Source: an uncultured Selenomonadaceae bacterium (GTDB lineage Bacteria > Bacillota > Negativicutes > Selenomonadales > Selenomonadaceae). Taken from it: 52,201 nucleotides of DNA. Location: contig CAJOIA010000012.1 of assembly GCA_905234505.1 (NCBI GenBank), positions 1 to 52,201 of the forward strand, read 5' to 3'. Positions 1,259-51,999 of the stretch are shown here, piece after piece (position 1 is the first letter of the stretch; each line of letters begins with the position of its first letter). Under the pieces are notes generated by a model. That model was not told where the DNA came from. It saw only the letters and a program-made list of their open reading frames with translations, and searched no databases. The position numbers and the translations under genes are program-made.

Positions 1259-1292
1259 TGCGTCACCCCTTTAATTAATGATTCGCGCAGGT

Positions 1293-1604
1293 TTAGAATT
1301 TTTTATCTGTCACGGTAAGGGTAATTTTTTCGCCGTCGCGTTTAATTTTGAAGTTGTAATCTTTGACGCCGGACGCTCCAAGTTCAATCTTCAGCGCGAG
1401 TAATTCCATTCCAAGCTTTTCAGTTAATTCTTTAGTGAATCCAGCCTTAGCAAGCGGCTCGGGCGGCGCTTCAGCGTCTTCGACTAAGCGGCGCTTTTCA
1501 GCTTTTTTTGCTGCTGTCAAAAGTTGCGCCTCTACCGATTGTTCCTCCACGTAATTTCTGATCATATCTTTATCCGTCAAGCCGCGTGGCGGTTTCTTCA
1601 TCAT
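1293..1604 (-). CDS. small conserved-looking hypothetical protein, 103 aa
   Basis: I do not recognise the family. The start is supported by AAAGGAG nine bases upstream of two consecutive ATG codons, and the next downstream start is the permease at 1258. The N-terminal half is Lys/Glu/Ala-rich and probably helical (residues 20-50). The C-terminal third (about residues 75-103) alternates charged and hydrophobic residues in a beta-like pattern ending in ITLTVTDKKF. There is no signal peptide, membrane segment or cysteine. It lies between glnS and the permease on the same strand, separated from glnS by a heptamer repeat element. It looks like a soluble cytoplasmic protein; no function is proposed. 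Confidence 0.6.
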   Translation of the reverse strand: MMKKPPRGLTDKDMIRNYVEEQSVEAQLLTAAKKAEKRRLVEDAEAPPEPLAKAGFTKELTEKLGMELLALKIELGASGVKDYNFKIKRDGEKITLTVTDKKF

Positions 1605-1628
1605 TGTTAAAAACTCCTTTCAGTCGTC

Positions 1629-1704
1629 TTTAGTGATTAGTGAGTAGTGGTTAGGGATTAGTGATTTTTTTCTACTCACTATTCACTAAACCCTAATCCC
1701 TAAC
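1629..1704. repeat. heptamer-type inverted repeat element (copy 1)
   Basis: One arm is built from degenerate TTAGTGA/TTAGGGA heptamers, followed by a short T-rich spacer and a complementary arm of CACTAATCCCTAA-type heptamers, so the element can fold into a long imperfect hairpin. It lies directly at the 3' end of glnS. The last glnS codons and its TAG stop (1693-1695 region) are formed by the repeat itself. Related copies are near 10836, 23110, 31003, 43916 and 48001. Confidence 0.8.
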
Positions 1705-3339
1705 TTTAGCCCAAGAATCTTTTAAACCGACAACTCGATTGAAAACTAAATGCTCGGGCGTGGTATCCTTGTCGACAACAAAATAACCCAGCCGCAAAAA
1801 TTGATAATGAGTACCCGCCGCCGTCCAACGAACCGAAGGCTCAATCAGCGCATTTTCAACAACAATAAGCGAATTTGGATTGAGCGCGCCGATAAAATCT
1901 TCCGGCAAATTTCCGCGTTCGTCAGTCGTCAAAAGGTAATCATACAGCCGCACTTCAGCCTTCAGCGCATGTTCAGCGCTAACCCAATGAATTGTGCCCT
2001 TGATTTTGCGGTTAGCAGTTTCGCCGCCTTGTTTTGAAGTTGGATCAATCGTGCAGTGCAATTCAATAACATTGCCCGCCGCGTCCTTTACAACTTCATT
2101 GCACTTGATAATGTAAGCATATTTCAGCCGCACTTCACCGCCAGGTTTCAAGCGGAAAAATTTTTTAGGCGCCTCTTCCATAAAATCGTCGCGCTCAATA
2201 AAAATTTCCCGAGTAAACGGCACATACCGGCTGGCGCTGCGCGAAGGATGATTTTCAGCGTAAAGATATTCAGTACCGGTGACATTCGTTAAAACAACTT
2301 TCAGCGGATTCAAAACAGCCATAACGCGGTCGGCATTTTTATTTAAATCCTCGCGGACGCAATGCTCTAACATCGCCACGTCAACCAAGCTATTGCTTTT
2401 CGCCACGCCGATTCTTTCGCAAAAATCACGAATAGCCGCCGGAGTAAAACCGCGCCGCCTCATTCCGGAAAGCGTCGGCATGCGTGGGTCATCCCAACCG
2501 CGAACGTGTTTTTCTTCAACGAGCTGTCGAAGTTTGCGCTTGCTGGTAATTGTGTTGGTTAAATCAAGCCGCGCAAATTCAATCTGTCTTGGACGACTGT
2601 TAACATCAAAACCAAGCGAATCAAGAAGCCAATCATAAAACGGGCGATGATCTTCAAATTCCAGCGTGCAAACCGAATGAGTTATGCCCTCGATAGCGTC
2701 TTCAAGTGGATGTGCAAAATCGTACATAGGATAAATCAGCCACTCGTCGCCGGTGTGGTGGTGCGTAGTGCGAGTAATGCGATAAATGACAGGGTCGCGC
2801 ATATTAATATTTGGAGACGCCATATCGATTTTGGCGCGCAAAACTTTTTCGCCGTCAGCAAATTCGCCCGCCTTCATACGCGCAAATAAATTTAAATTTT
2901 CTTCGACGCTGCGATTGCGGCAGGGGCTTTCTTTGCCAGGTTCAGTCAATGTGCCGCGATAAGCTTTAATTTCCTCCGCGCTCAAATCGTCAACATAAGC
3001 CAATCCGCGCCGCGTCAATTCGACAGCATAATCATAGAGCTTGCTGAAATAATCGGACGCAAAAAATTTCCTGTCGCCCCAATCGAAGCCAAGCCATTTA
3101 ATATCTTCCTGTATCGAATCGACGTATTCAACATCTTCTTTAGTTGGGTTAGTATCGTCAAAGCGCAGGTTGCAGACGCCATTATTAAAATTCGCCAATC
3201 CAAAATTCAGGCAAACAGATTTAGCGTGCCCAATGTGCAGATAACCATTTGGTTCGGGCGGAAAGCGCGTTACTATTCCATTAACATACTTGCCAGCCTT
3301 CAAATCATTGTCAATTTCCTGCTGAATAAAATTCGTCAT
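1693..3339 (-). CDS. glnS: glutaminyl-tRNA synthetase
   Basis: This cytoplasmic class I aminoacyl-tRNA synthetase attaches glutamine to tRNA-Gln. The class I ATP-binding signature HIGH is at residues 35-38, inside a [15 protein letters not shown] block. The KMSKS-like loop is ITSKRK at 264-269, the form usual in GlnRS. The central [12 protein letters not shown] block and the C-terminal anticodon-binding beta barrels complete a 548-residue protein of normal length. A purine-rich ribosome site (AAGGGG) precedes the ATG. The last residues (VRD) and the stop codon are contributed by the adjacent heptamer repeat. Its presence means tRNA-Gln can be charged directly, rather than only through the Glu-tRNA amidotransferase route. 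Confidence 0.97.
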
Positions 3340-3486: not shown

Positions 3487-4266
3487 TCATTTACCGATAA
3501 TTTTATTGACATATTCGCGCAGAAGTTTAACGCCCTTAGCAACTTTTTCATCCATCGGCAGATTTTCAACAATCTTTTCAATATAGCCGCGTTCGACAAT
3601 TTTTCTCATCGTCCAGGCAAAATTAACATCATAAATCCACATCAGCCGAACAATTTTTCTGTCGCCATTGGTGCGAATTAAGCGATAATCTGTTTGCTCG
3701 CCGCGCATAAATTTTTCAACAAAATCCGGACTAATTTCAGCTCGCGCCTTGCCTTTAATAAATTTGGGCATTTTATCGGCGTTCTCCTGCGCGAGGTATG
3801 GCTCAAGCACGCGGTAAATATCAAGCTTATCTGCATCGCGAATCACTTTAGCAAATAAAAGTCTCCTCTCGCTGTCGGTCGGCGCAATTTCTTTTTTATT
3901 ATGCTGACTAATCGCAAATTTCACAATCTCAAAATCGGCGGCGTCCAATTTCTTAAAAAAATCCAGCTCATTAATAACTTTTATTCCTAAATCGGCGTGG
4001 TCTTCAGAATCAGCATCATTGAAAGTTTTGTAAACGCTGTATTGCCGAAACCGCCCAACATCATGGAACAAGCCAATAATTTCTGCCAGTTCAATATCAT
4101 GCTGAGAAAAATTTAAATTCTTAGCCAGCTCAACGCTATTAGCCGTAACGTAGCCGGTATGTTTTTCCTTAATCAAAATCCCTTGCTGAACTTCGGCGTC
4201 TTCGCTGTAAAAACTTTTCATATAATTCGTCATCCATTGGTGCATTTCGTTAAGAATTTCGCGCAA
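3487..4266 (-). CDS. HD-domain phosphohydrolase
   Basis: A 259-residue cytoplasmic metal-dependent phosphohydrolase of the HD superfamily. The metal-binding set is visible: His36 (KHTGYV), the HD doublet at 68-69 (FHDVGRF), His90 (EDHADLG) and a later Asp in RDADKLDIYRV near residue 145. The fold is shared by enzymes acting on nucleotides or cyclic nucleotides, so the substrate is unknown. The start is a TTG seven bases after an AGGTGGTG ribosome site. The gene stands between ctsR and glnS and is followed immediately by hairpin element D. Confidence 0.85.
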   Translation of the reverse strand: MREILNEMHQWMTNYMKSFYSEDAEVQQGILIKEKHTGYVTANSVELAKNLNFSQHDIELAEIIGLFHDVGRFRQYSVYKTFNDADSEDHADLGIKVINELDFFKKLDAADFEIVKFAISQHNKKEIAPTDSERRLLFAKVIRDADKLDIYRVLEPYLAQENADKMPKFIKGKARAEISPDFVEKFMRGEQTDYRLIRTNGDRKIVRLMWIYDVNFAWTMRKIVERGYIEKIVENLPMDEKVAKGVKLLREYVNKIIGK

Positions 4267-4984: not shown

Positions 4985-6772
4985 ATGGCTATCGCAGAAT
5001 TGGACGAGTTTGTCAATAAAGTTAGAGAACGCTCGGATATTTACGCGGTAGTTTCCAGGTACATAGCGCTGAATTTTAAGGGCGGACGATATTGGGCGTG
5101 CTGTCCATTTCATAACGAAAAAACTGCTTCATTTACGATTTCGCCGGATAAGGGAATGTTTTATTGTTTCGGCTGTCATCAAGGCGGAAATGTTTTTAAG
5201 TTTATTTCGTTGATGGAAAATATTTCCTATTTCGACGCGATAAAATTGCAGGCGGAACGGCTCGGAATAGCTTTACCTTCGCGAAAAAAAACTCCGGCGG
5301 AACTTAAACTTGAGCAAGAAAGAAAATCACTTTTAAACATAATGACGCTAACACAAGAATTTTATCATAATAGCTTAGTAAAAACCGTTGCAGGCGAAAA
5401 ATGCAGGAAATATCTTGCGGCGCGTGGAATAACAAGCGGCGTGATTGATAAATTCAAGTTAGGTTATGCGCCGGATTCTTGGGACGCTCTTACAAAAACG
5501 CTGAGAAGTCGCGGTTTCGACGATAAACAGTTATTAGCGACAGGTGTGGCTCATGACAAGCAAAGCGGCGCGGGTGTTTATGACAGAATGCGCGACAGAA
5601 TGATTATCCCGATTGCTGATATTAACGGCAATGTCGTGGGATTTGGCGGGCGCATTTTGAACGAGGGCGAACCTAAATATTTGAATACACCAGAGACTGC
5701 GATTTTTATTAAAGGTAAATTGCTTTTCGGTCTTGACAAAGCGACGCGGGCGATAAATGCGGAAAATTGCGCGGTAGTTGTTGAAGGTTACATGGACGCA
5801 ATTTCATTAGCGAGCGCGGGAATTGAAAATGTTGTAGCGACTTTAGGCACGGCTTTTTCTGCCGAGCACGCGAAACTTTTAATGAGGTATACGCGGCGAA
5901 TAATTTTATGCTACGACAGCGACGAAGCGGGACAACGGGCGACTATGAGAGCATTGCCGATAATTCAAAATGCAGGCGCTGAAGTTTTTGTTGTGGCAGT
6001 TCCCGATGGCAAAGATCCAGATGAATTTGTACGCAAGCATGGCAAGGCGGCTTTTGAAAATCTCTTGAAAAATGCTTTGCCTTTCGTGGATTATAAAATC
6101 CAATATATTCTTGCTCGCGCAGATGTTTTGTCGACTAGTGGAAGATCGAAGGCGCTTCGGTCGCTTTTACCGATTTTGTCTGAAATTAACGACGCCGTGC
6201 TTCAAATTGATTATTGCAGAAAAATAGCTGCAGCGCTTGTGCTTAACGAAAGTGCGGTTCTTGATGAATGGCGAAAATTTTCAAAGTCCAATTCCAGCGG
6301 TAAAACCATTAAAAAACCGACTGTGCGAGATGACGATATAATTCAGCGGTCGGGTAGTGCGATTATCAAAAAAGCGTGGCATGATGGTGACGTTTTAAGT
6401 TACGTGCTGGCAACTTTGCCCAAAGAAATTTTTATTGAAGTTCACCGCGAAATTCTCAACTACTTTGAAAAGTGCCGTGAAATGGAAAAACATCCTAGCG
6501 ATATTAGCGCGGCTGAAGAACTGAGCGCAGAGGCAAATGCGGAACTTTCCAGAATCTTAACAGGAGAAGTTAATGATTCTGACGAGTTAATTTCAATGGC
6601 GTATGAAAATTCGATAAAGGCTTTGCGGCGGATTGTATTAAAGGCTCAATATGAAAAAGCCCGCCGAGAAACTGAAGAATATTTAAAATCCGGCGACGAA
6701 GCGGCAATGAGAGTTGCATTTCAAAAATCGCTGGAAATTCAAAAGGAATTGAATAAACTTATGATAAAATAA
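4985..6772 (+). CDS. dnaG: DNA primase
   Basis: This enzyme synthesises RNA primers at the replication fork. It has an N-terminal CHC2 zinc-binding domain ([12 protein letters not shown], then [10 protein letters not shown], about residues 38-65), a catalytic core with the primase lead-in GFGGRIL, a Toprim domain ([12 protein letters not shown] near 262 and CYDSDEAG near 308) and a helical C-terminal helicase-interaction region. The 595-residue length is normal. ATG 4985 is preferred over ATG 4979 because the GGAGG site ends at 4975 and would be too close to the earlier codon. The gene is directly upstream of rpoD with an 17-base gap, the familiar macromolecular-synthesis operon order. Confidence 0.97.
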
Positions 6773-8274: not shown

Positions 8275-9249
8275 TTAGTTTCTTAGCCACTCAGCAACTT
8301 CCAGCGCATAATAGCTAATTATAATGTCTGCTCCCGCGCGCTTCATCGAGGTTAAACTTTCTAATACTATTCGCCGCTCATCTATCCAACCATTTTCCGC
8401 CGCCGCCTTAATCATCGCATATTCGCCGCTCACATTGTACACCGCAACCGGTAAATTTATTCCTGCGCGAACTTTAGCAACAACATCCAAATACGCTAAC
8501 GCTGGCTTCACCATTATAATATCTGCGCCTTCCGCCACGTCAAGCGAAACTTCCTTAAGCGCCTCCCGAATATTCGCGTAGTCCATTTGATATTGCTTCC
8601 TGTCGCCAAATTGCGGTGCACTATCCGCTGCCTCTCGAAATGGTCCATAAAAACCCGAGGCGTATTTCACCGCGTAGCTCATTATCGCCACATTCCCAAA
8701 ACTTTTTTCATCAAGCGCCTCACGTATCGCCGCTATTCGCCCGTCCATCATATCCGAAGGCGCAATTATATCAGCGCCAGATTCAGCTTGACTTATCGCC
8801 ACTTTCTGCAACAATTTTAAAGTCTCGTCGTTGTCAACGTAATTGCCGCACAATTTCCCGCAATGCCCATGATTTGTATATTGGCAAAGGCAAACGTCAC
8901 CAACAATCAGCAATTCCGGTACAGATTTTTTTATCCCACTTATCGCGCGCTGAACCGGACTGGTCATATCCCAAGCGCCGCTTCCAATTTCGTCCTTGTA
9001 TTCGGGCAATCCAAAAATTTCAATCGCCGGTAAACCCAAATCTGCAATTTTCTTAGCCAATTCCACCGCATTATCTACCGATAAATGATAGCAATTCGGC
9101 ATACTCGAAATTTCTTCACGAACATTTTCGCCTGGCACGACGAATATTGGATAAATTAAATCCTGCACGTCAAGCGTAGTTTCTCGTACCAACGCGCGCA
9201 TTTTTTCCGAAATCCTCAAGCGACGTGGTCTTATCCTTGTGTCGAACAT
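8275..9249 (-). CDS. hemB: delta-aminolevulinic acid dehydratase (porphobilinogen synthase)
   Basis: Condenses two 5-aminolevulinate molecules to porphobilinogen, the second common step of tetrapyrrole synthesis. The 324-residue protein has the zinc-ligand cysteines in CLCQYTNHGHCGKLC, one Schiff-base lysine in MSYAVKYASGFYGPFR and the second in DIIMVKPALAYLD, all as in the zinc-type family. GAGGTG precedes the ATG. It lies ten bases downstream of the cobA-hemD fusion on the same strand, so three tetrapyrrole steps are probably cotranscribed. Confidence 0.97.
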   Translation of the reverse strand: MFDTRIRPRRLRISEKMRALVRETTLDVQDLIYPIFVVPGENVREEISSMPNCYHLSVDNAVELAKKIADLGLPAIEIFGLPEYKDEIGSGAWDMTSPVQRAISGIKKSVPELLIVGDVCLCQYTNHGHCGKLCGNYVDNDETLKLLQKVAISQAESGADIIAPSDMMDGRIAAIREALDEKSFGNVAIMSYAVKYASGFYGPFREAADSAPQFGDRKQYQMDYANIREALKEVSLDVAEGADIIMVKPALAYLDVVAKVRAGINLPVAVYNVSGEYAMIKAAAENGWIDERRIVLESLTSMKRAGADIIISYYALEVAEWLRN

Positions 9250-9258: not shown

Positions 9259-10737
9259 TCATCGATTAATTTTAGTAATGGCGTCAACAAGTCCTGCGAT
9301 TGTAAATTCCTGCGCGACAATATCAGCTTCAACGCCAAATTTTTTCAAAGTGCCAGCTGTTACCGGACCAATCGCTGCAGTTTTAACTTTCGACAAAACT
9401 TCAGCGCCCACTGCCGCGATAAAATTTTCAACTGTCGATGAACTTGTAAACGTCACAATATCAAGTTCATTAAAATTAATATCGCCAGCATTTTCAGCGG
9501 CGGCAATTGTTTTATAGGCAGCGGTAACTGTTACCTCAGCGCCAATTTTTTTTAGTTCAATCGGCAAAATATCACGGGCAACTTCTGCGCGAGCGATTAA
9601 AATTTTCTTACCGGCAACGAGATTTTTCAGCGCGTCAATCAAGCCTTCTGCGCGAAATTCAGCGGGAATAATATCAGCCATAATTCCAAATTCAGAAAGT
9701 TTATCGGCGGTTGCAGAGCCAATCACAGCCACTTTCGCATTGCCTAAAGCGCGCGCGTCCAGCTTGAAAATTTTCAGCCGCTCAAAAAATTTCTCAACGC
9801 CATTAGCGCTCGTGAAAATCACCCAGTCAAAATTTTTGATATCGGAAATAGCTGCGTCTAAACTTTTGAAATTATCGGTAGGCGCAGCTATTTTTATTGT
9901 GGGAAATTCGATAACTTCCGCGCCGAGATTTTCAAGTTTTGCACTAAGTTTAGATGCCTGCTCGCGCGTTCGAGTCACAAGAATTTTTCTGCCAAATAAA
10001 ATTTTATTATCGAACCATTTCAGATTTTCGCGCAGATTGACGACTTCACCGACAACGAAAATTGCGGGCGGAGCAATTTTATTTTTCTCAACATCAGCTG
10101 CTGCATTTTCCAGCGTGGTTATCAAAACTTCCTGCGCGGGTTTCGTACCGTTGCGAATAACAGCCGCCGGAGTATTTCCTGCGCGACCATTTTCAATCAA
10201 TTTAGCGGTAATTTTAGCCAAATTGGCAATGCCCATTAAAAAAATCAGCGTATCAGCGGCGGTCGAAATTTTATCCCAGCGAATACTAGATTCAGATTTT
10301 GCGGGATCTTCGTGCCCTGTGACGACGGCAAATGAAGTCGCAATGCCGCGATGAGTGACCGGAATGCCCGCGTATGCCGGAACTGCAATAGCACTTGTGA
10401 CGCCTGGAATTATTTCAAAGTCAACGCCATTTTCGCGCAGAAATAGCGCCTCTTCGCCGCCGCGCCCAAATACAAATGGATCTCCGCCTTTGAGCCGCAC
10501 AATATTTTTTCCGCTCTTAGCCTTATCAACCAGCAATTTATTAATTTCAGTCTGCGCCAAAGTGTGTTGCCCCGCCGATTTTCCAACATAAATTTTTTCA
10601 GCGTCATTTGCGTATTTCAAAATTTTTTCGTCAGCAAGCCGGTCGTAAATCACAACATCAGCCGTTTTTAAAATCTCGCGCGCTTTCACAGTTAAAAGTC
10701 CTGCGTCACCTGGTCCGGCGCCCATTAAATATACCAT
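9259..10737 (-). CDS. cobA-hemD: uroporphyrinogen-III C-methyltransferase / uroporphyrinogen-III synthase fusion
   Basis: A two-domain cytoplasmic enzyme of 492 residues. Residues 1-240 are the SAM-dependent C-methyltransferase (VYLMGAGPGDAGLLT at the start, GGDPFVFGRGGEE, TSAIAVPAYAGIPVTHRG), which makes precorrin-2 from uroporphyrinogen III. Residues about 247-492 are the uroporphyrinogen-III synthase domain (KILVTRTREQASKL, DWVIFTSANGVEKFF, VTFTSSSTVENF). The fusion is common in Firmicutes and channels flux toward sirohaem or cobalamin. The gene lies between murI and hemB with short gaps. A GAGGTG site precedes the ATG. Confidence 0.96.
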   Translation of the reverse strand: MVYLMGAGPGDAGLLTVKAREILKTADVVIYDRLADEKILKYANDAEKIYVGKSAGQHTLAQTEINKLLVDKAKSGKNIVRLKGGDPFVFGRGGEEALFLRENGVDFEIIPGVTSAIAVPAYAGIPVTHRGIATSFAVVTGHEDPAKSESSIRWDKISTAADTLIFLMGIANLAKITAKLIENGRAGNTPAAVIRNGTKPAQEVLITTLENAAADVEKNKIAPPAIFVVGEVVNLRENLKWFDNKILFGRKILVTRTREQASKLSAKLENLGAEVIEFPTIKIAAPTDNFKSLDAAISDIKNFDWVIFTSANGVEKFFERLKIFKLDARALGNAKVAVIGSATADKLSEFGIMADIIPAEFRAEGLIDALKNLVAGKKILIARAEVARDILPIELKKIGAEVTVTAAYKTIAAAENAGDINFNELDIVTFTSSSTVENFIAAVGAEVLSKVKTAAIGPVTAGTLKKFGVEADIVAQEFTIAGLVDAITKINR

Positions 10738-10746: not shown

Positions 10747-11562
10747 TCAAATCAAATACATTTCGTCAAGCCGTTGCAAATATTTTTCCAGCCGCGCCAA
10801 TTCTTTTGCCGAAGTTACCTTTCTGCCAGAGTAGTAGTAAGTGATTAGTGGTTGGTGGTTAGTGGCTAGTGTAAAAAAATCACTTTCCACTTTCCACTTT
10901 TCACTTTTCACTAAACCAGCTAAACGTATCAACTGATTCAATGTACCTTCGTTGCCGTCCAAAAATTTTATATGCGCGGGCAAAATTTTTCGCATCGTGT
11001 CTTTGAAATAATTAAAATGCGTGCAACCCAAAACTACCGACGAAAATTCGCTGAAGTCATACGCTGAAAATTCTTCGCGCAGATAATTTTCTACCGCCGC
11101 CGAATTAAATTCCATTCGCTCTGCAAATTCCACCAACTCCGATAACGCACGCAATTCCGCTAATTCTCGCGCGTTCAATCTGTCAATTAATGCTTGGAGC
11201 TTTTCACCCGTGATTGTGATTTCGGTTGCCGTCACCAAAACTTTTCGCGCAGGAAATAAATCTAGCGCTCGCTTTATCGCCGGTTCCATTCCAACTATCG
11301 GCAATGAATATTTTTCTCGCATCGCCCGCACAGCTGCTGAAGTTGCCGTATTGCATGCTATAACTATTGCTCCGACGTCCTGCGCGACCAAAAATTTAAA
11401 CGCTTCCGCTACGTATCCTAAAACTTGCTCTTGCGTCTTTGTGCCGTACGGTACGTTATCTTCGTCCGCATAAAAAATAAATTCTTCATTCGGCAAAATG
11501 TTCATCGCATGGTGCAAAACCGACAGCCCGCCTATCCCAGAGTCGAAAAACGCTATTTTCAA
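10747..11562 (-). CDS. murI: glutamate racemase with a repeat-derived insert
   Basis: Makes D-glutamate for peptidoglycan. The two catalytic cysteines are visible in ACNTATSAA and LGCTHF, and the N-terminus has the family FDSGIGGLSVL block. TTG 11562 is preferred because GAGGTGAGG lies just upstream; the longer ATG frame at 11613 overlaps the phosphate transporter and adds a non-family tail. Between the racemase core and the C-terminal VTSAKELARLEKYL segment, a stretch of about 27-28 residues (KSEKWKVESDFF through LITYYY) is encoded by a heptamer repeat element that stays in frame. The protein is otherwise about the normal length for MurI, so the insert probably sits in a surface loop near the C-terminus. 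Confidence 0.94.
   Translation of the reverse strand: MKIAFFDSGIGGLSVLHHAMNILPNEEFIFYADEDNVPYGTKTQEQVLGYVAEAFKFLVAQDVGAIVIACNTATSAAVRAMREKYSLPIVGMEPAIKRALDLFPARKVLVTATEITITGEKLQALIDRLNARELAELRALSELVEFAERMEFNSAAVENYLREEFSAYDFSEFSSVVLGCTHFNYFKDTMRKILPAHIKFLDGNEGTLNQLIRLAGLVKSEKWKVESDFFTLATNHQPLITYYYSGRKVTSAKELARLEKYLQRLDEMYLI
10836..10914. repeat. heptamer-type inverted repeat inside murI (copy 2)
   Basis: Plus-strand heptamers of the GTGATTAGTGGTTGG type are followed by a T/A-rich centre and then CACTTTCCACTTTTCAC-type complements. It is the same family as the intergenic copies at 1629 and 31003 but lies wholly inside the murI reading frame and introduces no stop on the coding strand. Confidence 0.8.
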
Positions 11563-12571: not shown

Positions 12572-13220
12572 ATTTCATAACCACCCCGCGAATCATTTCG
12601 GCAATTTTTTTGCAATGGTCAAGCGTCTGCTCAAGGTCTTCAAGAATATCTTTCCATTTGATAAGATGAATAACCGCCTTGCTCGCGCCGTGCTCCTTAG
12701 CTGCAACTTCCGCTTCGTCAAATAAAATTCCAATATCTTCACGGTAAATGTGATCGCCTTTGCCTTCGTAATCGGCAACTTTATGGACGGCGTCAAGCAT
12801 TTCACGCTGATTTTTTTTAATATCCTTCATAAGTTCAAATGCGCGCAAAAGTTCATTTGTGCTGTCGACAAGCAGCTTAGTCATTCGCGCAGATTTTTCA
12901 GTGGCGTGTCCGGCGTGATACATAATGATTCGCTGAAGTGCGTCGTGCAACATATCAACGCCCGTTGCCAATTCGCTCGCTATCATATAAATATCTTCGC
13001 GATCAATCGGCGTAATGAAACTCAGATTCAGCTTAGCGATAATTCGCTCGTTAACTTCGTCTGCGGCGGATTCCAGCCCGAGAATTTCTTCAATGCGCTC
13101 AAATGTTTTATTTGGGTCTTTAATGACTTCGTCGAGCAAAACCGCGCCCAAGTGAAAATATTTCGCGTTCTCCAAAAATAAATCGAAGAACTCCGTGTCC
13201 TTGCGAGAAAAATTAAACAT
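12564..13220 (-). CDS. PhoU-like DUF47 phosphate transport regulator
   Basis: A 218-residue, almost entirely helical cytoplasmic protein of the DUF47/PhoU-like family that partners PiT transporters. It opens with MFNFSRKDTEFFDLF and contains the family's charged helices with repeated E/D-x3-D-like metal-binding spacing (EEILGLESAADEVNERI, and later KVADYEGKGDHIYRED). A GGAGG site precedes the ATG. It overlaps pit downstream and rluD upstream (7 bases), so the three are read as one unit. The role in controlling phosphate uptake is inferred from the family and from this pairing. Confidence 0.92.
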   Translation of the reverse strand: MFNFSRKDTEFFDLFLENAKYFHLGAVLLDEVIKDPNKTFERIEEILGLESAADEVNERIIAKLNLSFITPIDREDIYMIASELATGVDMLHDALQRIIMYHAGHATEKSARMTKLLVDSTNELLRAFELMKDIKKNQREMLDAVHKVADYEGKGDHIYREDIGILFDEAEVAAKEHGASKAVIHLIKWKDILEDLEQTLDHCKKIAEMIRGVVMKYA

Positions 13221-43323: not shown

Positions 43324-44001
43324 TTGCCGATTTATAATGCTCCTATTTTAAAGATTGACGCGGCTGAAACTTGCCGATATGCTGGTTTGAAAAATGCTCA
43401 AAACTTCGACGAAAAAAATATTTCCGACGCCTGCGAAGAGGCGCTTTTGCTTTTGGACGTGCGCGGCATTTGGAAAATTTACGATTATGACTGCGCGAAT
43501 CGCATTGTAAAATCTGAGCCGCAATTTGAAATTATCGGCGCGTCAATTATCAAACATTTGGCTGGTTGCGAGAAAGTTGCCTGCATTGCGGTCACTGTTG
43601 GAGAAAATATCGAAAATGAAGTTTCGCGCAGATTTACTGTTGGCAATTATGTTTCATCGGTACTTTTGGACGCTGCCGCTACCGCCGCAGTTGAGCAAGC
43701 TGCAGATTCTCTTGAAAAAATTATCGCCCGCGAAGTTAGCAAAGACAGTTATAAAATGCGCTGGCGTTTCAGTCCTGGCTATGGCGATTGGCAACTTGAT
43801 AATCAGGAAAAATTTTTTGAGATAACCGGCGCGCGCGAAATTGGAATGAGTCTTAGCGCGGCTTTTATGCTTATTCCAAGAAAATCTGTCACCGCGATTA
43901 TTGGCTTGGAGAAGGTGACTAGTGAAAAATGTTTAGTGGTTAGTGATAAAAAAAAATCCTGCGCGATGTGCGATAAATTGAATTGTCCTGCGCGTTTTTG
44001 A
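43324..44001 (+). CDS. vitamin B12-dependent methionine synthase activation-domain protein
   Basis: A 225-residue cytoplasmic protein like the SAM-binding reactivation domain of MetH, occurring separately in Firmicutes. MRWRFSPGYGDWQLDNQEKFFEI near residue 140 is the SAM-binding signature, and MLIPRKSVTAIIGLE follows. The C-terminus carries a Cys cluster (CAMCDKLNCPARF) typical of this stand-alone type. The stretch between them (VTSEKCLVVSDKKK) is encoded by a heptamer repeat. TTG 43324 has GAGGTG upstream. Its partner methionine synthase is not in the window. Confidence 0.85.
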   Translation: MPIYNAPILKIDAAETCRYAGLKNAQNFDEKNISDACEEALLLLDVRGIWKIYDYDCANRIVKSEPQFEIIGASIIKHLAGCEKVACIAVTVGENIENEVSRRFTVGNYVSSVLLDAAATAAVEQAADSLEKIIAREVSKDSYKMRWRFSPGYGDWQLDNQEKFFEITGAREIGMSLSAAFMLIPRKSVTAIIGLEKVTSEKCLVVSDKKKSCAMCDKLNCPARF

Positions 44002-44037: not shown

Positions 44038-44832
44038 TTGCAGAAATTTGAAAAGTGGCAAGGCTGCGGCAATGATTTTATGATAATCGACAGCCGCATT
44101 GATAGCCATATTGACGACGCTAAAAAAATTTCCCGACTTTGTGACAGGCATTTTGGAATTGGCGCAGATGGCGTGATTTACGTTTTGCCTAGCGAAATTG
44201 CAGATGTGCGAATGAGAATTTTCAACGCGGACGGCTCTGAAGCTGAAATGTGCGGCAATGGCATTCGCTGTTTCACAAAATATTTGGGCGGCGATAATCT
44301 GAAGGTTGAAACCGGCGCAGGCGTTTTAACTGTCAAGCTGAATAATAATCTGGTAACTGTTGACATGGGCGAGCCGATTTTGGACGCTGAAAAAATTCCG
44401 GTTGCCGATTTTTCCGGCAAAGTTATTAATGAGCCAATTGAAATTGACGGCGAAATTTTTAAAATGACCTGCGTAAGTATGGGCAACCCGCATTGCGTGA
44501 TCTTCGTTGAAGATTTGAGCAAAATAAATCTCGCGCAGATTGGACCGAAATTCGAGACGCACAAAAAATTTCCGCGCCGTACCAATACTGAATTTGTTCA
44601 AGTTGTCGGCGAAAATGAATTGCGAATGCGCGTTTGGGAGCGTGGCAGCGGAATAACTTTAGCTTGCGGTACTGGCACCTGCGCGACAGTTGTTGCGGCG
44701 AATCTGAACGGCTTAACGGGTAAATCTGCGCTGGTTCATCTGGACGGCGGCGATTTACAAATTGATTGGCGAGCTGATAATCGCGTTTATATGACGGGCG
44801 CGGCTGAAAAAAGTTTTGTTGGAGAATTTTAA
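44038..44832 (+). CDS. dapF: diaminopimelate epimerase
   Basis: Converts LL- to meso-diaminopimelate for lysine and peptidoglycan synthesis; cytoplasmic, 264 residues. The two catalytic cysteines lie in EMCGNGIRCF and ITLACGTGTCA. The N-terminus FEKWQGCGNDFMIID is typical. The TTG start at 44038 is read from a ribosome site made by the heptamer repeat. The gene ends by overlapping the gmk ATG by one base (TAATG). Confidence 0.96.
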   Translation: MQKFEKWQGCGNDFMIIDSRIDSHIDDAKKISRLCDRHFGIGADGVIYVLPSEIADVRMRIFNADGSEAEMCGNGIRCFTKYLGGDNLKVETGAGVLTVKLNNNLVTVDMGEPILDAEKIPVADFSGKVINEPIEIDGEIFKMTCVSMGNPHCVIFVEDLSKINLAQIGPKFETHKKFPRRTNTEFVQVVGENELRMRVWERGSGITLACGTGTCATVVAANLNGLTGKSALVHLDGGDLQIDWRADNRVYMTGAAEKSFVGEF

Positions 44833-45434
44833 TGGACAGAGGATTATTAATTGTTATTTCCGGCGCGAGTGGCACGGGCAAAGGCACTGTTTGCAAAAGA
44901 CTTTTGGCTGAAATTCCAAATTTATTTTACTCAATTTCGGCAACTACCAGACCTGCGCGAGTGGGTGAAACTAACGGCGTTGAATATTTTTTTGTGACGG
45001 TTGACGAATTTAAAAATTGGATAGCTGAAGGCAAATTTCTTGAATACGCTGAAGTCTATGGTAATTTCTACGGGACGCCCGCACATAAAATTGAAGAGCG
45101 CTTGAAGCGCGGCGAAGATGTTTTGCTGGAAATCGATATTCAAGGCGCGCTAAATGTTATGCAGAAACGTCCCGAGGGCGTGTACATTTTTTTATTGCCA
45201 CCGACAATTGAAGAACTAAAAAAGCGAATAATTAATCGCGGCACAGAATCAGCGGAAACTTTCTCGCGCAGAATTAAAGCCGCCACTAACGAAATTGAAA
45301 CTGGCAGAAAATATCAATATGCTGTTGTTAATGACACTGTCGACGCGGCTGTTGAGAAAATCAAAGCGATAATTGCCGCCGAGCGTTGCAAAGTTATTCG
45401 CAATGAAAATCTTTTTGAGAGTTTAACAAAGTGA
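44832..45434 (+). CDS. gmk: guanylate kinase
   Basis: Phosphorylates GMP to GDP; cytoplasmic, 200 residues. The P-loop is SGASGTGKGTV. The GMP-binding block TTRPARVGETNGVEYFFV and the ILLEIDIQGALNV-type Walker B (here LLEIDIQGALNVM) are present. It is followed after twelve bases by rpoZ and then coaBC, the conserved gmk-rpoZ-coaBC order. Confidence 0.97.
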   Translation: MDRGLLIVISGASGTGKGTVCKRLLAEIPNLFYSISATTRPARVGETNGVEYFFVTVDEFKNWIAEGKFLEYAEVYGNFYGTPAHKIEERLKRGEDVLLEIDIQGALNVMQKRPEGVYIFLLPPTIEELKKRIINRGTESAETFSRRIKAATNEIETGRKYQYAVVNDTVDAAVEKIKAIIAAERCKVIRNENLFESLTK

Positions 45435-45668: not shown

Positions 45669-46858
45669 ATGAACTTGCTGGAAAAAATATATTAGTCGGA
45701 GTAACCGGCGGAATTGCAGCTTACAAAGTGGTTGAAGTTGTCAGTCGGTTTAAAAAGATGGGCGCTGAAGTCCGAGTAGTAATGACGCGCGCCGCCGCAG
45801 AATTTGTCGCACCGCGTACTTTTCAAGAAATTACCAAAAATCCCGTGTCTGTAGAAATGTTTGCAGGCACGGTTAATTTTCACGTTGAACACATCGCGCT
45901 GGCGAATTTTGCGGACGTAGTTTTAATCGCTCCGGCAACTGCGAATTTCCTTGCAAAGGCGGCTCATGGTATTGCCGACGATTTATTGACAACGATTGTT
46001 TTAGCTACAACTGCGCCGATGATTGTCGCGCCGTCCATGAATACAAAAATGCTGGAACATCCGGCAACGCAGGCTAATTTGAAAATATTGGAAGGTCGCG
46101 GTGTTAAAATTATCGACGCCGAAATTGGGAGGCTGGCGTGCGGCACAAGCGGCAAGGGCAGACTTTCTGAGCCGGAAAATATTTGCGCAGAAATTGTTAA
46201 GTTTTTCGCGCCGAAAATTCTTATTGGCAAAAAAATTCTTGTGACGGCTGGCGGTACCATTGAGCCGATTGATCCTGTTCGATTTATCTGCAACCGTTCA
46301 ACCGGCAAAATGGGTTATGAAATTGCGCGAGCGGCGAAAAATGCGGGCGCTGAAGTCATTTTAATTTCCGGCAACGCCACTGCCGAACCTCCAAGTGATA
46401 TTAAATTTGTTAAGGTTGAGACGGCTCTTGAAATGCGCGAGGCGGTTTTGGCTGAATATGAAAATGTTGACGCGGTGATAATGTCGGCGGCAGTTTCAGA
46501 TTATCGCGTGAAAAATGTTGCCTCTCAAAAAATTAAAAAGTCCAATGAAACTTTGACGCTTGAGCTTGTTAAAAATCCGGACATTTTAAAGGAACTCGGC
46601 GAGCGTAAAAATAATCAGCTGCTGGTTGGATTTGCAGCAGAAACTGAAAATGTTATTGAATATGCGCGCGGCAAAATCGATGAGAAAAATCTTGACTTCA
46701 TCGTTGCTAATGACGTTTCGCAGGAAGGCGCAGGTTTCGGCGTCGATACCAATATTGTTTCGCTGATTGATCGCGCAGGTGACATTGAAAACCTTCCACT
46801 AATGACTAAGGCTGAACTGGCTGAAAAGATTATTCAACGCATCGCAGAGCTGATTTAA
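45665..46858 (+). CDS. coaBC: phosphopantothenoylcysteine decarboxylase / phosphopantothenate-cysteine ligase
   Basis: A bifunctional coenzyme A enzyme of 397 residues. The N-terminal flavoprotein (CoaC, 1-180) has VTGGIAAYKV, the active-site His in NFHVEHIALANFADVV, APSMNTKMLEHPA and the catalytic Cys in RLACGTSGKGRL. The C-terminal ligase (CoaB) has VTAGGTIEPIDPVRFICNRSTGKMGYE and NDVSQEGAGFG. It is coupled to rpoZ. The 81-bp tandem array begins 15 bases after the stop. Confidence 0.97.
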   Translation: MNELAGKNILVGVTGGIAAYKVVEVVSRFKKMGAEVRVVMTRAAAEFVAPRTFQEITKNPVSVEMFAGTVNFHVEHIALANFADVVLIAPATANFLAKAAHGIADDLLTTIVLATTAPMIVAPSMNTKMLEHPATQANLKILEGRGVKIIDAEIGRLACGTSGKGRLSEPENICAEIVKFFAPKILIGKKILVTAGGTIEPIDPVRFICNRSTGKMGYEIARAAKNAGAEVILISGNATAEPPSDIKFVKVETALEMREAVLAEYENVDAVIMSAAVSDYRVKNVASQKIKKSNETLTLELVKNPDILKELGERKNNQLLVGFAAETENVIEYARGKIDEKNLDFIVANDVSQEGAGFGVDTNIVSLIDRAGDIENLPLMTKAELAEKIIQRIAELI

Positions 46859-48052: not shown

Positions 48053-48988
48053 ATGAGCGTACAAAATATGATACATGAAAAAATCTTGCACGATATTTCT
48101 GCAGGAATAATCTATATCAATCACGGAAAAATCAATTACGTTAATCCGGCGGCGTCGAATATCCTAAATAAATCTAGCGAAGAAATGCTTGAAAAATCCT
48201 TTGCCAAAGTTTTTATAGACTACGAAGAAAACGACGATTTTATTCAGACTGTCATAGATGCAATTTGCGATTCTTCAAATACTCATGAAAATATCGTTCA
48301 ATATTTCGACGGCACGAATACTAAAAGTCTGCATTTAAAAACTTCATTTCTGCGCGAAGGTTTGCGAAGAATTGGTATCCTGATTTTGATTGACGACGTA
48401 ACCGAATTAATGAAATTGCGCGGCGTGGAATTAGATTTTCAAAAAGTGCGCGAGATTAATGAACAACTTGAAATTCGCAATGCTCAACTCAAGCACGAAT
48501 CAGAAACAGATAAATTAACCGGCTTGCTGAATAAAAAAGCTATGGAAAATCTTTGCGTTGAATATCTGCGGGAATTGGAAGGTCGCGCAGCGCTATATGT
48601 GATTGATTTGGATCATTTCAAAGAGGCTAATGATACTTACGGACATCAAACAGGCGACATTATTTTGAAAACATTTGCCGATTCAATAAGCAAAATTTTT
48701 GAAGACATTGGATATGTCGGGCGATTTGGCGGCGATGAATTTGTAATTCTGTTGCAAGACCCGCCGGACGAAAATTTTATCGAGGAAAAAGCGCGAGCGA
48801 TTTTGAAGGCGGCAACCGATATTAAAATTGCCGGAATGGAACTTCAAATTACAGCGAGTATCGGCGTGGCGGATATCACTGAGGCTATCGATTATGAAAC
48901 AGCCTTTGCACTGGCTGATAAGGGCGTGTACTTTGTTAAGGAACGCGGGCGCGCCAATTTCAAAGTAAATCAAGCAGCCGCCGATTAA
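48053..48988 (+). CDS. PAS-domain diguanylate cyclase (GGDEF)
   Basis: A 311-residue cytoplasmic protein that probably makes cyclic di-GMP. Residues about 10-120 form a PAS sensor (ISAGIIYINHGKINYVNPAASNIL), a short coiled coil covers 125-155, and the GGDEF domain covers 156-305 with DKLTGLLNKKAM, IDLDHFKEANDTYGHQTGD and the active-site loop RFGGDEFVILLQ. No membrane segment. An inhibitory I-site RxxD is not clear before GGDEF. AAGGAG lies about nine bases before the ATG. Confidence 0.93.
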   Translation: MSVQNMIHEKILHDISAGIIYINHGKINYVNPAASNILNKSSEEMLEKSFAKVFIDYEENDDFIQTVIDAICDSSNTHENIVQYFDGTNTKSLHLKTSFLREGLRRIGILILIDDVTELMKLRGVELDFQKVREINEQLEIRNAQLKHESETDKLTGLLNKKAMENLCVEYLRELEGRAALYVIDLDHFKEANDTYGHQTGDIILKTFADSISKIFEDIGYVGRFGGDEFVILLQDPPDENFIEEKARAILKAATDIKIAGMELQITASIGVADITEAIDYETAFALADKGVYFVKERGRANFKVNQAAAD

Positions 48989-49063: not shown

Positions 49064-49828
49064 TTGGTATATTTACTGAAGTTCGGAGCGAGCTGGATTT
49101 TGCCGCCCGGGCTTTTCATTATATTGCTGGTAATTTTGACGCTGTACCTTTTGAAATACAATTTGAGGCTGTCGATTTTGGTCGGATTATGGACGCTGAT
49201 TTTTTACGCGCTATGCACAGGCTTTGTTGCGGAGCGTGCAATGGGTTGGTTAGAGCAAAAATATTCTCTGCCTGCGCAAATTGAAAAATCTGGCGCTGAT
49301 GTGATTATAATGCTGGGTGGCGGTGCAATTCGCGATTCTCAAGACGTGGACGGCGAAGGTACCCTCTGCGCGAGTCCGGCAAATAGACTTTTGACAGCGG
49401 TTAGATTGCAGAAAAAATTAAACCTGCCAATACTTTTAAGCGGCGGGCAAGTTTATTCTGATACCGGCGCAGAAGCAATGATTGCTGGCAGAATTTTAAA
49501 TGCGCTCGGAGTTCCAGAAAATAAAATCTTGCTTGAAACTAAGAGCATCAACACTACTCAAAATGCAATTTTCTCGGCTGAAATTCTGCGCGAAAATAAT
49601 TTGCATAAACCAATTGTCGTAACCAGCGCCTTTCATATGAATCGCGCAGTGCTCAATTTCCGGCAACAGGGCTTTGAAGTCATTCCATGCCCGACAGATT
49701 TTCTTGTGCCACATAATCCGCAATTTCACTATACAAAACTTCGCCCGCAATCTGAAGCGTTATTGTTAAACGTTACTGTAATGCAAGAAACTTTGCGGAC
49801 GCTTGTTACAGAAATTTTAAAGATATAA
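49064..49828 (+). CDS. ElyC/YdcF-family DUF218 membrane protein
   Basis: A 254-residue inner-membrane protein. Two hydrophobic segments at about 8-29 and 34-56 precede a DUF218 domain (IIMLGGGAIRDSQ, ANRLLTAVRLQKKLNLPILLSGGQ, GAEAMIAGRIL, ETKSINTTQNAIFSAEIL, VTSAFHMNRAVLNFRQQG). ElyC-type members affect envelope polysaccharide and peptidoglycan precursor metabolism. The start is a TTG with AAAGGT upstream. Its end is 14 bases from tmk. Confidence 0.9.
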   Translation: MVYLLKFGASWILPPGLFIILLVILTLYLLKYNLRLSILVGLWTLIFYALCTGFVAERAMGWLEQKYSLPAQIEKSGADVIIMLGGGAIRDSQDVDGEGTLCASPANRLLTAVRLQKKLNLPILLSGGQVYSDTGAEAMIAGRILNALGVPENKILLETKSINTTQNAIFSAEILRENNLHKPIVVTSAFHMNRAVLNFRQQGFEVIPCPTDFLVPHNPQFHYTKLRPQSEALLLNVTVMQETLRTLVTEILKI

Positions 49829-49842: not shown

Positions 49843-50472
49843 ATGGGTAAGTTGATTGTCATTGAAGGCACGGACGGTTCGGGTAAAGCCACCCAAACTA
49901 CGCGACTTTTTGAGCGCCTTCAGAATCTGCGCGTTAAAGTTATGCGCGTGAGTTTCCCGCAATATGAATCCGATTCTTCCGGTCCTATTAAAATGTATCT
50001 GCGCGGCGATCTTGGTTCAAATCCTATGGAGATTAATCCCTATGCTTGTTCTATGTTTTACGCGGTTGACAGATTCGCCAGCTTTCAAACCTGGAAAAAT
50101 TTTTTTGCCGAAGATAATACAATAGTACTGGCTGATCGTTATACCGGCTCAAATGCTGCTCATCAAGGCGCTAAATTTAATCGCAAAGCCGACAGGGAAA
50201 AATTTTTTAATTGGCTTGAAGATGTCGAATTTAAAAAATTTCAAATGCCTCACCCTAACCTTACTATCTTTTTAAATATGCCGCCCGAAATTTCAGCTAT
50301 GCTCCGCAGAAAGCGCGGGCGTGTTGATTTGCACGAAGACGATAACGAGTATATGCTTAAAGCCTACAAAGCTTATTGTGAAGTTGCTCAAAAATTCGGC
50401 TGGAAAACTATTGACTGCGCTGAAGGCAATTTTGCCAAATCTGCCATTGATATTGAAGATGAAGTTTTTTAA
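49843..50472 (+). CDS. tmk: thymidylate kinase
   Basis: Phosphorylates dTMP to dTDP; cytoplasmic, 209 residues. The P-loop is EGTDGSGKATQT. The DR(Y/x)-type lid residue block is LADRYTGSNAAHQGAKF. SFPQYESDSSGPIKMYLRGDLG is typical of the form common in anaerobic Firmicutes. ATG 49843 is used rather than a GTG nine bases earlier because AGGTAGGTG then lies at proper distance. It precedes the MmeI-type remnant by 20 bases. Confidence 0.93.
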   Translation: MGKLIVIEGTDGSGKATQTTRLFERLQNLRVKVMRVSFPQYESDSSGPIKMYLRGDLGSNPMEINPYACSMFYAVDRFASFQTWKNFFAEDNTIVLADRYTGSNAAHQGAKFNRKADREKFFNWLEDVEFKKFQMPHPNLTIFLNMPPEISAMLRRKRGRVDLHEDDNEYMLKAYKAYCEVAQKFGWKTIDCAEGNFAKSAIDIEDEVF

Positions 50473-50492
50473 TTAGCTGAAAGGAAAATATC

Positions 50493-51454
50493 ATGCCCAC
50501 AATTTTTAAAACAAATCCGGACGGCACTATTACCGCGACAGAAGTTCCACACATTAACGCATATTTGATTAATGGTCCAGATGTTTTTGTTGAGAGCCGG
50601 AAAAAGCCGCTGTGCAACGTACCGCCCATGATTAAAGGCAGTCAACCGACTGACGACGGCAATTTAATTCTATCACCGGCTGAGCGCGACGAACTTATTA
50701 AAAAATGCTCGCCCGCTGAAAAATATATCCGCCGCTTTATTGGCTCTGAAGAATTTATCAATAATAAAATTCGCTATTGCCTGTGGCTTGTAGATTGCCC
50801 GCCCAATGAACTTAGAAAAATGCTGCCAATTTATGAGCGCATTAAAAATGTCAAGCAATTTCGTTTGCAAAGTAAAAAAGGCGCCACTCGCAAGTGGGCT
50901 GATAAAGCCTGGCTATTCACTGAAAATAGACAACCAAAAACAGATTTTGTTGTAGTTCCTGCAGTTAGCGGCGAAAGTCGAAAATATATTCCAATGGGAT
51001 TTATGACGCCGGATATTATTGTCTCAAATCTTGTTTCGTTTATTCCGGACGGCAATTTGTATTTGTTTGGGCTGTTGAATAGCGTGGTGCATATGGCGTG
51101 GATGAGAATTGTCGCGGGGCGGCTTGGAATTAGCTACAGATATTCAGGGACATTGGTTTATAATAATTTTCCATTCATTAATACCGATTCAAAGCGGCGG
51201 GCAAAGATTGAAGCGGCGGCGCAGACAATATTGGACGCGCGGGCGAAATATCCAGATTCGAGCCTGGCTGATTTATATGATGAAAATGTAATGCCGATAG
51301 AATTGCGGGCGGCTCACAGAGCTAACATGGTTATCCTGATTCTTGGTACGACGACGAAGAAAAAATTGTAGTTGATTTGCTGTACAGGTATGAAGCTTTG
51401 ACAAAAGGCGGACCGAAATCGCGCATTGCGGCAATAAGCCGGAGGAGTTTTTAA
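50493..51454 (+). pseudogene. C-terminal remnant of a MmeI-type (type IIL) restriction-modification enzyme
   Basis: The open frame 50493-51371 (292 codons) matches only the last third of MmeI-like fused restriction-methylases. It has the lead-in YLINGPDVFVESRKKPLCNVPPM, the target-recognition region (ADKAWLFTENRQPKTDFVVVPAVSGESRKYIPMGFMTPDIIVSNLV, LNSVVHMAWMRIVAGRL) and the C-terminal YRYSGTLVYNNFPF block. The nuclease and SAM-methylase domains are missing. After RAAHRAN the frame is lost (MVILILGTTTKKKL is out of frame). The family tail continues in another frame as GYPDSWYDDEEKIVVDLLYRYEALTKGG and ends at 51454, overlapping the rnmV ATG. A good AAAGGAAA site and ATG remain, so a DNA-binding fragment might still be made. 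Confidence 0.85.
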
Positions 51455-51999
51455 TGATTCAAGAGGTTCTGATAGTTGAAGGGAAATCTGATGTGGCGGC
51501 GATAAATCGGGCAGTTGAAGCGGATTGCATTATCACCAATGGATTTCATTTCAGCAAAAAAACTTTGTTGGATATAGCGGCGGCGTATAATCGGCGTGGG
51601 ATAATTATTTTGACTGATCCCGATGTTGCCGGTGAAAATATCCGAAAATATTTGTGCAAGAAATTTCCTGCCGCTAAAAACGCCTACGTGCCCCGTGACG
51701 CGGCGACAGCTGGTTTAGACATAGGAATAGAAAATGCGTCGCCAAAGGCTATTGTCGAGGCGCTGAGTGTGCTTAGAACGGCTGTTATCGAGCCGCGCAA
51801 TGAATTTACCGCTGCTGAAATGGTTGGACTTGGATTGTCGGGCGGCGTGCATAGTTCAGTCCTGCGCGATAAAATTGGAGCGGCGCTGGGTATTGGTTAT
51901 GGCAATGTCAAAACTTTTGTTAAGCGGCTGAATAATTACGGCGTCACTCGCGCAGAATTTACGGAGGCGTTGAAAAATGTTACATCCGAGAATAGCTGA
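51454..51999 (+). CDS. rnmV: ribonuclease M5
   Basis: A Toprim-domain nuclease (181 residues) that matures the 5S rRNA precursor. The catalytic Glu is in VLIVEGKSDVAAI and the acidic pair in IILTDPDVAGENIRKYL; YVPRDAATAGLDIGIENASP is diagnostic. The ribosome site GGAGG lies within the end of the MmeI remnant. It overlaps the rsmA start by 23 bases; rnmV-rsmA is the usual Firmicutes order. Confidence 0.95.
   Translation: MIQEVLIVEGKSDVAAINRAVEADCIITNGFHFSKKTLLDIAAAYNRRGIIILTDPDVAGENIRKYLCKKFPAAKNAYVPRDAATAGLDIGIENASPKAIVEALSVLRTAVIEPRNEFTAAEMVGLGLSGGVHSSVLRDKIGAALGIGYGNVKTFVKRLNNYGVTRAEFTEALKNVTSENS

Follow-up and report, generated by a model that had tools for sequence, protein, structure and literature searches.

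The question raised by contig CAJOIA010000012.1 of the uncultured Selenomonadaceae assembly GCA_905234505.1 (contig 12 of the genome called G000 here), whose 52,201 nucleotides are referred to below as the window, is what has filled it with copies of a single octamer, TCGCGCAG. The original prediction had noticed this word in the letters of the window and proposed it as a candidate uptake or genome-signature word. Here, we find that TCGCGCAG is one dialect of a word family, new here, in a genus of 66 genomes. Together with a following purine and a T/A-rich stretch it is probably a self-recognition word of a natural-transformation system, comparable to the DNA uptake sequences (DUS) of Neisseriaceae and the uptake signal sequences (USS) of Pasteurellaceae.

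Distribution of the word in the window and the genome

Exact copies of TCGCGCAG number 66 in the window, 33 on each strand, between positions 1283 and 51955, so that the strand balance first noted (32:31) stands while the underlying count of 63 was too low. Over-representation is evident against 100 dinucleotide-preserving shuffles of the window (mean 3.22 copies, maximum 10) and against Markov expectations of 3.1 (order 3) and 6.2 (order 4). As had been anticipated, near-misses are rare, each one-mismatch variant having at most 6 copies, and a purine stands directly 3′ of the word in 54 of the 66 copies (29 A, 25 G). The flanks of the copies are all unique and the array at 46864–48004 is an unrelated 81-bp tandem repeat, and a CRISPR or mobile repeat was rejected as the source of the word.

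G000 is a metagenome-assembled genome (MAG) of 1,792,840 bp in 97 contigs, and the named records closest to it are of rumen Selenomonadaceae. A GlnS comparison places it nearest to the uncultured Selenomonadaceae bacterium isolate Sheep_1_mag_18 (90% identity), whose word counts equal those of G033, a genome of the genus; two MAGs of Selenomonadaceae from goat rumen come next (89 and 86%). The word is not restricted to the window but is spread over the whole genome, with 2206 copies (1089 + 1117 on the two strands; 1.23 per kb) compared with 165 (84 + 81) for the word read backwards, which shows it to be a genome signature. More detailed statistics refer to a 798 kb sample of G000 containing 994 copies, where an order-3 Markov model that masks the word predicts 28.5. 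The strands are again balanced (491:503) and homogeneous over 32 contigs (chi2 20.0, p 0.95), where a 75:25 bias would give a chi2 of approximately 272, and the correlation of the strand signal with GC skew is small (r 0.22). Within open reading frames (ORFs), called mechanically by length, lie 952 of the 994 copies, 504 in sense and 448 in antisense orientation (p 0.075). All six frames are used, in line with the original prediction, at unequal frequencies of 50 to 236 copies each, and the word is often read as LRE, LRD or xAQ. Close pairs are rarer than a Poisson distribution would give (64 gaps below 100 bp against 120).

The preference for particular neighbours extends beyond the adjoining base. 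Among 550 copies in G000, position +8 is A or G in 74% and C in 4%, A is favoured at +9 and T at +11 and +12, and the upstream side is weakly AT-rich. The +8 purine and the T/A preference from +9 to +12 recur round TCGCGCAG in G005, G033, G034 and G018, and round CCGCGCAG, the word with C in place of the first T, in G022, G095, G009 (19 copies) and G083 (20 copies); in G000, neither five near-miss words (315 copies) nor a further three control words (304) were followed by them. Stretches of the sample poor in the word were considered as foreign islands and rejected as such, the sole 20 kb desert being a giant repetitive ORF and the others holding, by eye, dnaK/grpE/dnaJ, groEL, flagellin and envelope genes. 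They speak neither for nor against a shutting out of the word from mobile DNA. At L102:1–19722 one open frame of at least 6574 amino acids, with G-D-rich repetitive units at its start, contains one TCGCGCAG in 20 kb.

Dialects and letter switching at shared sites

By thresholds of our own, 8 of the 66 genomes were assigned to the TCGCGCAG dialect and 33 to CCGCGCAG, the other 25 being weak, mixed or without either word. Copies of TCGCGCAG per Mb, based on rounded sizes for all genomes except G000, number 1232 in G000, 1168 in G005, 1092 in G098, 844 in G024, 726 in G034, 638 in G033, 621 in G018 and 236 in G094, while CCGCGCAG reaches 956 in G095 and 809 in G009 (reversed word 132 and 215). 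Where one of the two words is high the other lies mostly near its control; G020 and G087 carry both at moderate levels. Two further dialects are palindromes, namely CTGCGCAG in G092 (477 sites, reversed word 44), found also in G086 (80 against 12), and CCGCGCGG in G103 and G036. The latter, with 53 sites in 90 kb of G103 and 25 in 76 kb of G036, exceeds its Markov expectation approximately 5-fold, a comparison for which, as in some other tallies, palindromes were counted on both strands; it is often T/A-flanked, 23 sites in G103 and 17 in G036 reading TCCGCGCGGA. In G018, TCGCGCTG (55 against 14.4 expected) and TCGCGCGG (52 against 18.4) are present in addition to TCGCGCAG. Common to the dialects are the letters GCGC, one variable letter and then G. 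A separate observation concerns G003, where GGATCTGA is strongly over-represented (L096 and L097; 40 against 2.3 in 27 kb) and may be a local repeat.

The dialects, sharing this inner core, follow the phylogeny. In a quick single-gene ComEC tree of 62 genomes, from which the four genomes without a ComEC match were left out, a single clade unites the eight TCGCGCAG genomes (support 98), and the change between T and C as first letter occurs once over 37 rows. Across 200 genomes from the class, G000 (approximately 950 per Mb) and G005 (930) have the highest density of YCGCGCAGR. Its level in other genera is at most about 320 per Mb, several of them showing it 2- to 8-fold over the reversed word, and these genera may possess a weaker relative of the system.

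Copies at aligned positions were compared in blastn blocks between G000 and its relatives, using a partial sample of each genome and, as retention controls, T-initial octamers with at least two CpG; the retention and 201-copy tallies and those on CCGCGCGG in G103 and G036 and on CTGCGCAG in G092 are not de-duplicated, and gapped sites were set aside in the switching tests. Near relatives retain the word. G005 and G098, at 83% identity, have TCGCGCAG at 42 of 47 G000 sites, compared with 46% for controls, and G024 and G033 (77% identity) at 41 of 79, compared with 21%. The nine genomes poor in both TCGCGCAG and CCGCGCAG, among them G086 with its CTGCGCAG, keep none of 59 (controls 5.7%). Opposite 201 aligned G000 copies, 21 C-dialect genomes read CCGCGCAG at 29 and TCGCGCAG at 9, where controls are identical in 13% and differ solely by a C for the initial T in 2.4%. 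When each G000 site enters the tally a single time under its majority reading, 90 sites yield 8 CCGCGCAG and 4 TCGCGCAG, against 59 T-to-C changes and 380 identities at 2634 control sites (Fisher p 4.9e-5), and the same bias is seen in G095 alone (6 CCGCGCAG and 2 TCGCGCAG at 36 sites, p 9e-4) and in G022 alone (5 and 3 at 23 sites, p 6e-4). In the reverse direction, 61 G000 positions opposite a CCGCGCAG read TCGCGCAG in 12 cases and CCGCGCAG in none (p 2e-9, with G000 sites counted once and controls, 117 and 530 of 5889, not de-duplicated); since 5 of the 12 switched positions lie round ComEC, a stretch fetched for most genomes, these sites are not a random sample. The switch to CCGCGCGG is weak, 7 of 41 G000 sites reading this word and none TCGCGCAG in G103 and G036, since 7 of 134 control octamers show an identical double change (p 0.02). 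Comparison with relatives, one of the checks that had been suggested for the word, thus reveals dialects by clade, retention among near species and a first letter that switches at shared sites. Either origin of this pattern, a concerted letter change after shared descent or repeated gain at the same permissive sites, points to a sequence-specific reader whose taste depends on the clade.

The candidate reader and competing explanations

Genes for natural transformation were sought as ComEC, ComF, PilB-like, PilT, PilC and pilins. A ComEC match is present in 62 of the 66 genomes, ATPases of PF00437, a family that includes those of Tad systems, in all 66 (65 above cut-off), a pilin match in 63 (weak in G002, G010, G025 and G026) and a FimT-like minor pilin match also in 63, covering only the N-terminal region common to pilins in G007, G017, G094 and G099. 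In G000 the loci comprise ComEC (contig 3), a PilB/GspE-like ATPase (contig 10), PilT adjoining PilC (contig 38), a major-pilin-like protein (contig 22), four consecutive minor-pilin-like ORFs (contig 15) and a Tad cluster (contig 8). The Pfam N_methyl model gave one match in this genome, below cut-off, and the pilins were then located by eye and motif; the four minor pilins, recognised by eye, have weak N-terminal matches to family models or none. The one competence-associated gene recognised in the window encodes a ComF-family protein (Table 1), in agreement with the homologue originally predicted there. The first of the four minor pilins ends in a C-terminal GRxR motif, shared by 18 of 21 aligned rows overall (the exceptions are the deviating G022 and G023 and a truncated G103), which corresponds to the conserved DNA-binding motif of FimT (PMC8897410); in Streptococcus pneumoniae like residues are described as playing a minor part only (PMC12040237). 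The motif is not specific to a dialect and occurs also in a word-poor genome, and hence supports DNA binding and not specificity. Between G000 and G005 the FimT-like minor pilin is 49% shared and the major-pilin-like protein 78%. Loss of the machinery from word-poor genomes was not seen for the genes searched in this respect (ComEC, pilin and minor pilin).

We infer that the putative reader is the uptake machinery and that the FimT-like minor pilin is its candidate receptor, in bacteria that would be competent. In the mechanism that we propose, the competence type IV pilus would carry a sequence-specific binder, most likely one of the minor pilins, that catches word-bearing DNA, the pilus would draw this DNA in and ComEC would carry it across the inner membrane. 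Recombination would then copy word-bearing alleles into the genome, where words would accumulate and persist. A shift in the preference of the binder would shift the word, partly at existing sites, and so give rise to the dialects TCGCGCAG, CCGCGCAG, CTGCGCAG and CCGCGCGG.

Inverted pairs outside genes are frequent for the neisserial DUS. Here, by comparison, the core is a different one, 952 of the 994 copies lie in ORFs and close opposite-strand pairs are few. The two systems share a short word at about 1 per kb and clade dialects that differ by few letters round a constant core and are congruent with the phylogeny (PMC3630211), whereas the core is CTG there and GCGC-variable-G here, in an unrelated sequence from a different phylum; nor is the word here concentrated outside genes, and the match to ComP lies under the cut-off only. 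The USS of Pasteurellaceae is likewise a word of the 9-nt class with AT-rich bases adjoining, and its receptor candidate is a FimT/PpdA-type minor pilin (PMC12616744), to be compared with the FimT-like minor pilin with GRxR found here; its core is however GCGG, while the word described here has a weak flank and one-mismatch forms that do not clearly rise above Markov background.

Several observations weigh against an uptake word. There is no enrichment of TCGCGCAG outside ORFs, where 42 of the 994 copies fall in 6.3% of the sample, and the word deserts resemble, by eye, giant or highly expressed core genes and not foreign islands. Two of the dialects, CTGCGCAG and CCGCGCGG, are palindromic; the uptake words known to us are non-palindromic. 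G034 and G018 belong to the TCGCGCAG clade, yet they retain the word at 27 of 102 G000 sites, scarcely more often than controls are retained (23%), with a further 17 sites reading TCGCGCGG, and in G092 none of 62 G000 sites has switched to CTGCGCAG, 6 reading TCGCGCAG and 7 TTGCGCAG. On the side of the machinery, genomes without the word retain ComEC and pilin genes, GRxR is present in the word-poor G012 too, and the match of the major-pilin-like protein to Pfam ComP_DUS (E 0.009) is under the cut-off. Finally, one-mismatch forms of TCGCGCAG are not clearly in excess over the word-masked Markov expectation (746 against 727 in the 798 kb sample); base composition predicts 335, and four control words have 314 to 980. 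Singly mismatched forms of uptake words are reported to be in excess in Haemophilus influenzae and Neisseria gonorrhoeae by the base-composition expectation (PMC1939737). Density, strand balance and dialects match those of uptake words, and so does the presence of ComEC and of the type IV pilus genes sought; in view of these counterpoints we hold the uptake reading as likely, and do not file the word as either a DUS or a USS.

The alternative of a mark like the highly iterated palindrome HIP1 of cyanobacteria would have the word kept through a methyltransferase or another chromosome protein, for the sake of repair, recombination or self-marking and unconnected with uptake. HIP1 too is a GC-rich octamer over-represented through the genomes of its lineage and is tied to methyltransferases (PMC4390886). 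The density class is similar, the copies are mostly genic, CTGCGCAG and CCGCGCGG, being palindromes, have a form similar to that of HIP1, and the 798 kb sample contains, by motif, a DPPY ORF like DNA adenine methyltransferases and an NPPY ORF. HIP1 is however one fixed palindrome, GCGATCGC (PMC4390886), whereas the two commonest dialects here, TCGCGCAG and CCGCGCAG, are non-palindromic and the word varies by clade; the leading GC-rich octamer in G000 is TCGCGCAG and not GCGATCGC. Since CCGCGCGG is without any A, a single adenine-methylating enzyme for every dialect core is unlikely, and no cytosine-5 methyltransferase appeared in a simple motif scan of 45% of G000, the rest being unscanned. 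We consider a mark of this kind unlikely.

A chromosome-wide binding site for a protein of the nucleoid or of segregation would fit the genome-wide distribution, the short-range repulsion and the retention at orthologous sites as well, but we judge it distinctly improbable. The polar segregation systems, FtsK orienting polar sequences (KOPS) and architecture imparting sequences (AIMS), are strand-biased by replichore, unlike TCGCGCAG with its lack of contig strand bias and its weak relation to GC skew (r 0.22), and the density of the word is above that of the segregation sites familiar to us. Chi is strand-biased as well. A recombination hotspot of this type would likewise be over-represented and genic, yet it can scarcely account for a chi2 of 20.0 over the 32 contigs, where approximately 272 would accompany a 75:25 bias, or for 504 sense and 448 antisense copies; the balance of the strands over these contigs, a point that had been named as a test of such roles, speaks against both Chi and KOPS. 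Hardly more credible is the word as a by-product of codon usage, of base composition or of repeats, with which the frequent reading as LRE, LRD or xAQ would agree, given that six frames are used, that the reversed word and the summed one-mismatch words are at background, that the flanks in the window are unique and that letters switch at shared sites; as an artefact of codons or composition the word is further disfavoured by its neighbour words.

Veillonella parvula belongs to the same class as the Selenomonadaceae genus that carries the word. It is naturally competent, has a type IV pilus/type II secretion system-like locus and prefers its own genomic DNA; the authors of that study detected no word of at least 10 bp at 100 copies or more, and left shorter words open (PMC5397411). 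Neisseriaceae and Pasteurellaceae are said to be the only groups with known uptake words (PMC12616744). In the open-licence literature, neither TCGCGCAG as a whole word nor a DNA uptake sequence in Selenomonas or Negativicutes was found, and no such system in Selenomonadaceae is named among the matches listed. We lean slightly towards a third, independently evolved uptake-word system, which would be the first in Bacillota, with at least four dialects in one rumen genus, a FimT-type minor pilin that gained specificity as its reader, concerted switching at the same sites and dialect borders that amount to sexual isolation. If true, species-specific sex of this form would have a third origin, in a distant phylum, and would thus be seen to evolve repeatedly, and the word would provide a means of transforming rumen bacteria that are difficult to work with. 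The 66 genomes with their natural dialect switches are a resource for seeking the receptor by co-variation and for tests of drive versus selection. Even if the reader is not an uptake system, a one-letter switch at shared sites between species points to an unknown sequence reader.

Other features of the window and the genome

Table 1. Positions of TCGCGCAG and of the ComF-family gene in the window.
Feature	Position	Strand	Basis
TCGCGCAG copy	1283..1290	+	exact match
TCGCGCAG copy	2237..2244	-	exact match
TCGCGCAG copy	3515..3522	+	exact match
TCGCGCAG copy	3787..3794	-	exact match
TCGCGCAG copy	6115..6122	+	exact match
TCGCGCAG copy	8463..8470	-	exact match
TCGCGCAG copy	9310..9317	-	exact match
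TCGCGCAG copy	9585..9592	-	exact match
TCGCGCAG copy	9648..9655	-	exact match
TCGCGCAG copy	10028..10035	+	exact match
TCGCGCAG copy	10179..10186	-	exact match
TCGCGCAG copy	10433..10440	+	exact match
TCGCGCAG copy	11075..11082	+	exact match
TCGCGCAG copy	11245..11252	+	exact match
TCGCGCAG copy	11380..11387	-	exact match
TCGCGCAG copy	11899..11906	+	exact match
TCGCGCAG copy	12885..12892	+	exact match
TCGCGCAG copy	13363..13370	+	exact match; CCGCGCAG at same position in a C-dialect relative
TCGCGCAG copy	13592..13599	+	exact match
TCGCGCAG copy	15138..15145	+	exact match
TCGCGCAG copy	15171..15178	-	exact match
TCGCGCAG copy	15271..15278	+	exact match
TCGCGCAG copy	15595..15602	-	exact match
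TCGCGCAG copy	16614..16621	-	exact match
TCGCGCAG copy	17545..17552	-	exact match
TCGCGCAG copy	17637..17644	+	exact match
TCGCGCAG copy	17986..17993	+	exact match
TCGCGCAG copy	20014..20021	+	exact match
TCGCGCAG copy	21290..21297	+	exact match
TCGCGCAG copy	22203..22210	-	exact match
TCGCGCAG copy	22710..22717	+	exact match
TCGCGCAG copy	23057..23064	-	exact match
TCGCGCAG copy	24044..24051	-	exact match
TCGCGCAG copy	24532..24539	+	exact match
TCGCGCAG copy	24780..24787	-	exact match
TCGCGCAG copy	25649..25656	-	exact match
TCGCGCAG copy	26039..26046	+	exact match
ComF-family protein; holds two TCGCGCAG copies	28095..28781	+	TIGR00201, E 1.8e-29, below curated cut-off
TCGCGCAG copy	28217..28224	-	exact match
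TCGCGCAG copy	28516..28523	+	exact match
TCGCGCAG copy	29029..29036	+	exact match
TCGCGCAG copy	29441..29448	+	exact match
TCGCGCAG copy	31378..31385	-	exact match
TCGCGCAG copy	32713..32720	-	exact match
TCGCGCAG copy	34163..34170	-	exact match
TCGCGCAG copy	36059..36066	+	exact match
TCGCGCAG copy	36323..36330	-	exact match
TCGCGCAG copy	38315..38322	-	exact match
TCGCGCAG copy	38659..38666	-	exact match
TCGCGCAG copy	38937..38944	+	exact match
TCGCGCAG copy	39115..39122	-	exact match
TCGCGCAG copy	39564..39571	+	exact match
TCGCGCAG copy	43491..43498	-	exact match
TCGCGCAG copy	43624..43631	+	exact match
TCGCGCAG copy	43959..43966	-	exact match
TCGCGCAG copy	44531..44538	+	exact match
TCGCGCAG copy	44679..44686	-	exact match
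TCGCGCAG copy	44953..44960	-	exact match
TCGCGCAG copy	45264..45271	+	exact match
TCGCGCAG copy	46771..46778	+	exact match
TCGCGCAG copy	48350..48357	-	exact match
TCGCGCAG copy	48583..48590	+	exact match
TCGCGCAG copy	49366..49373	-	exact match
TCGCGCAG copy	49586..49593	-	exact match
TCGCGCAG copy	49642..49649	+	exact match
TCGCGCAG copy	51862..51869	-	exact match
TCGCGCAG copy	51948..51955	+	exact match

The tandem array at 46864–48004 comprises approximately 14 units of 81 bp between genes that by eye are coaBC-like and PAS-GGDEF regulator-like. Similar units occur at two more places in the sampled DNA of G000 (L103 and L222), and an exact 13-letter piece of the unit was found in none of 7 relatives in their sampled DNA.

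Two genes of the window relate to restriction. The GmrSD-type restriction enzyme gene at 38828–40552 holds three copies of TCGCGCAG, while a 292-aa ORF at 50493–51371 is matched in Pfam solely by the target-recognition and C-terminal domains of MmeI-type restriction-modification enzymes and, lying near the contig end, may be a detached specificity part or a remnant. In a 452 kb sample of G000, with both strands counted, GGCGCC (102 against 701), GCCGGC (98 against 557), CCGCGG (24 against 420) and GAATTC (76 against 395) are strongly under-represented, which suggests past or present restriction systems. Elsewhere in the window, a single ORF at 26113–27963 joins a mannose-6-phosphate isomerase-like N-terminal half to a ROK-family sugar kinase C-terminal half.

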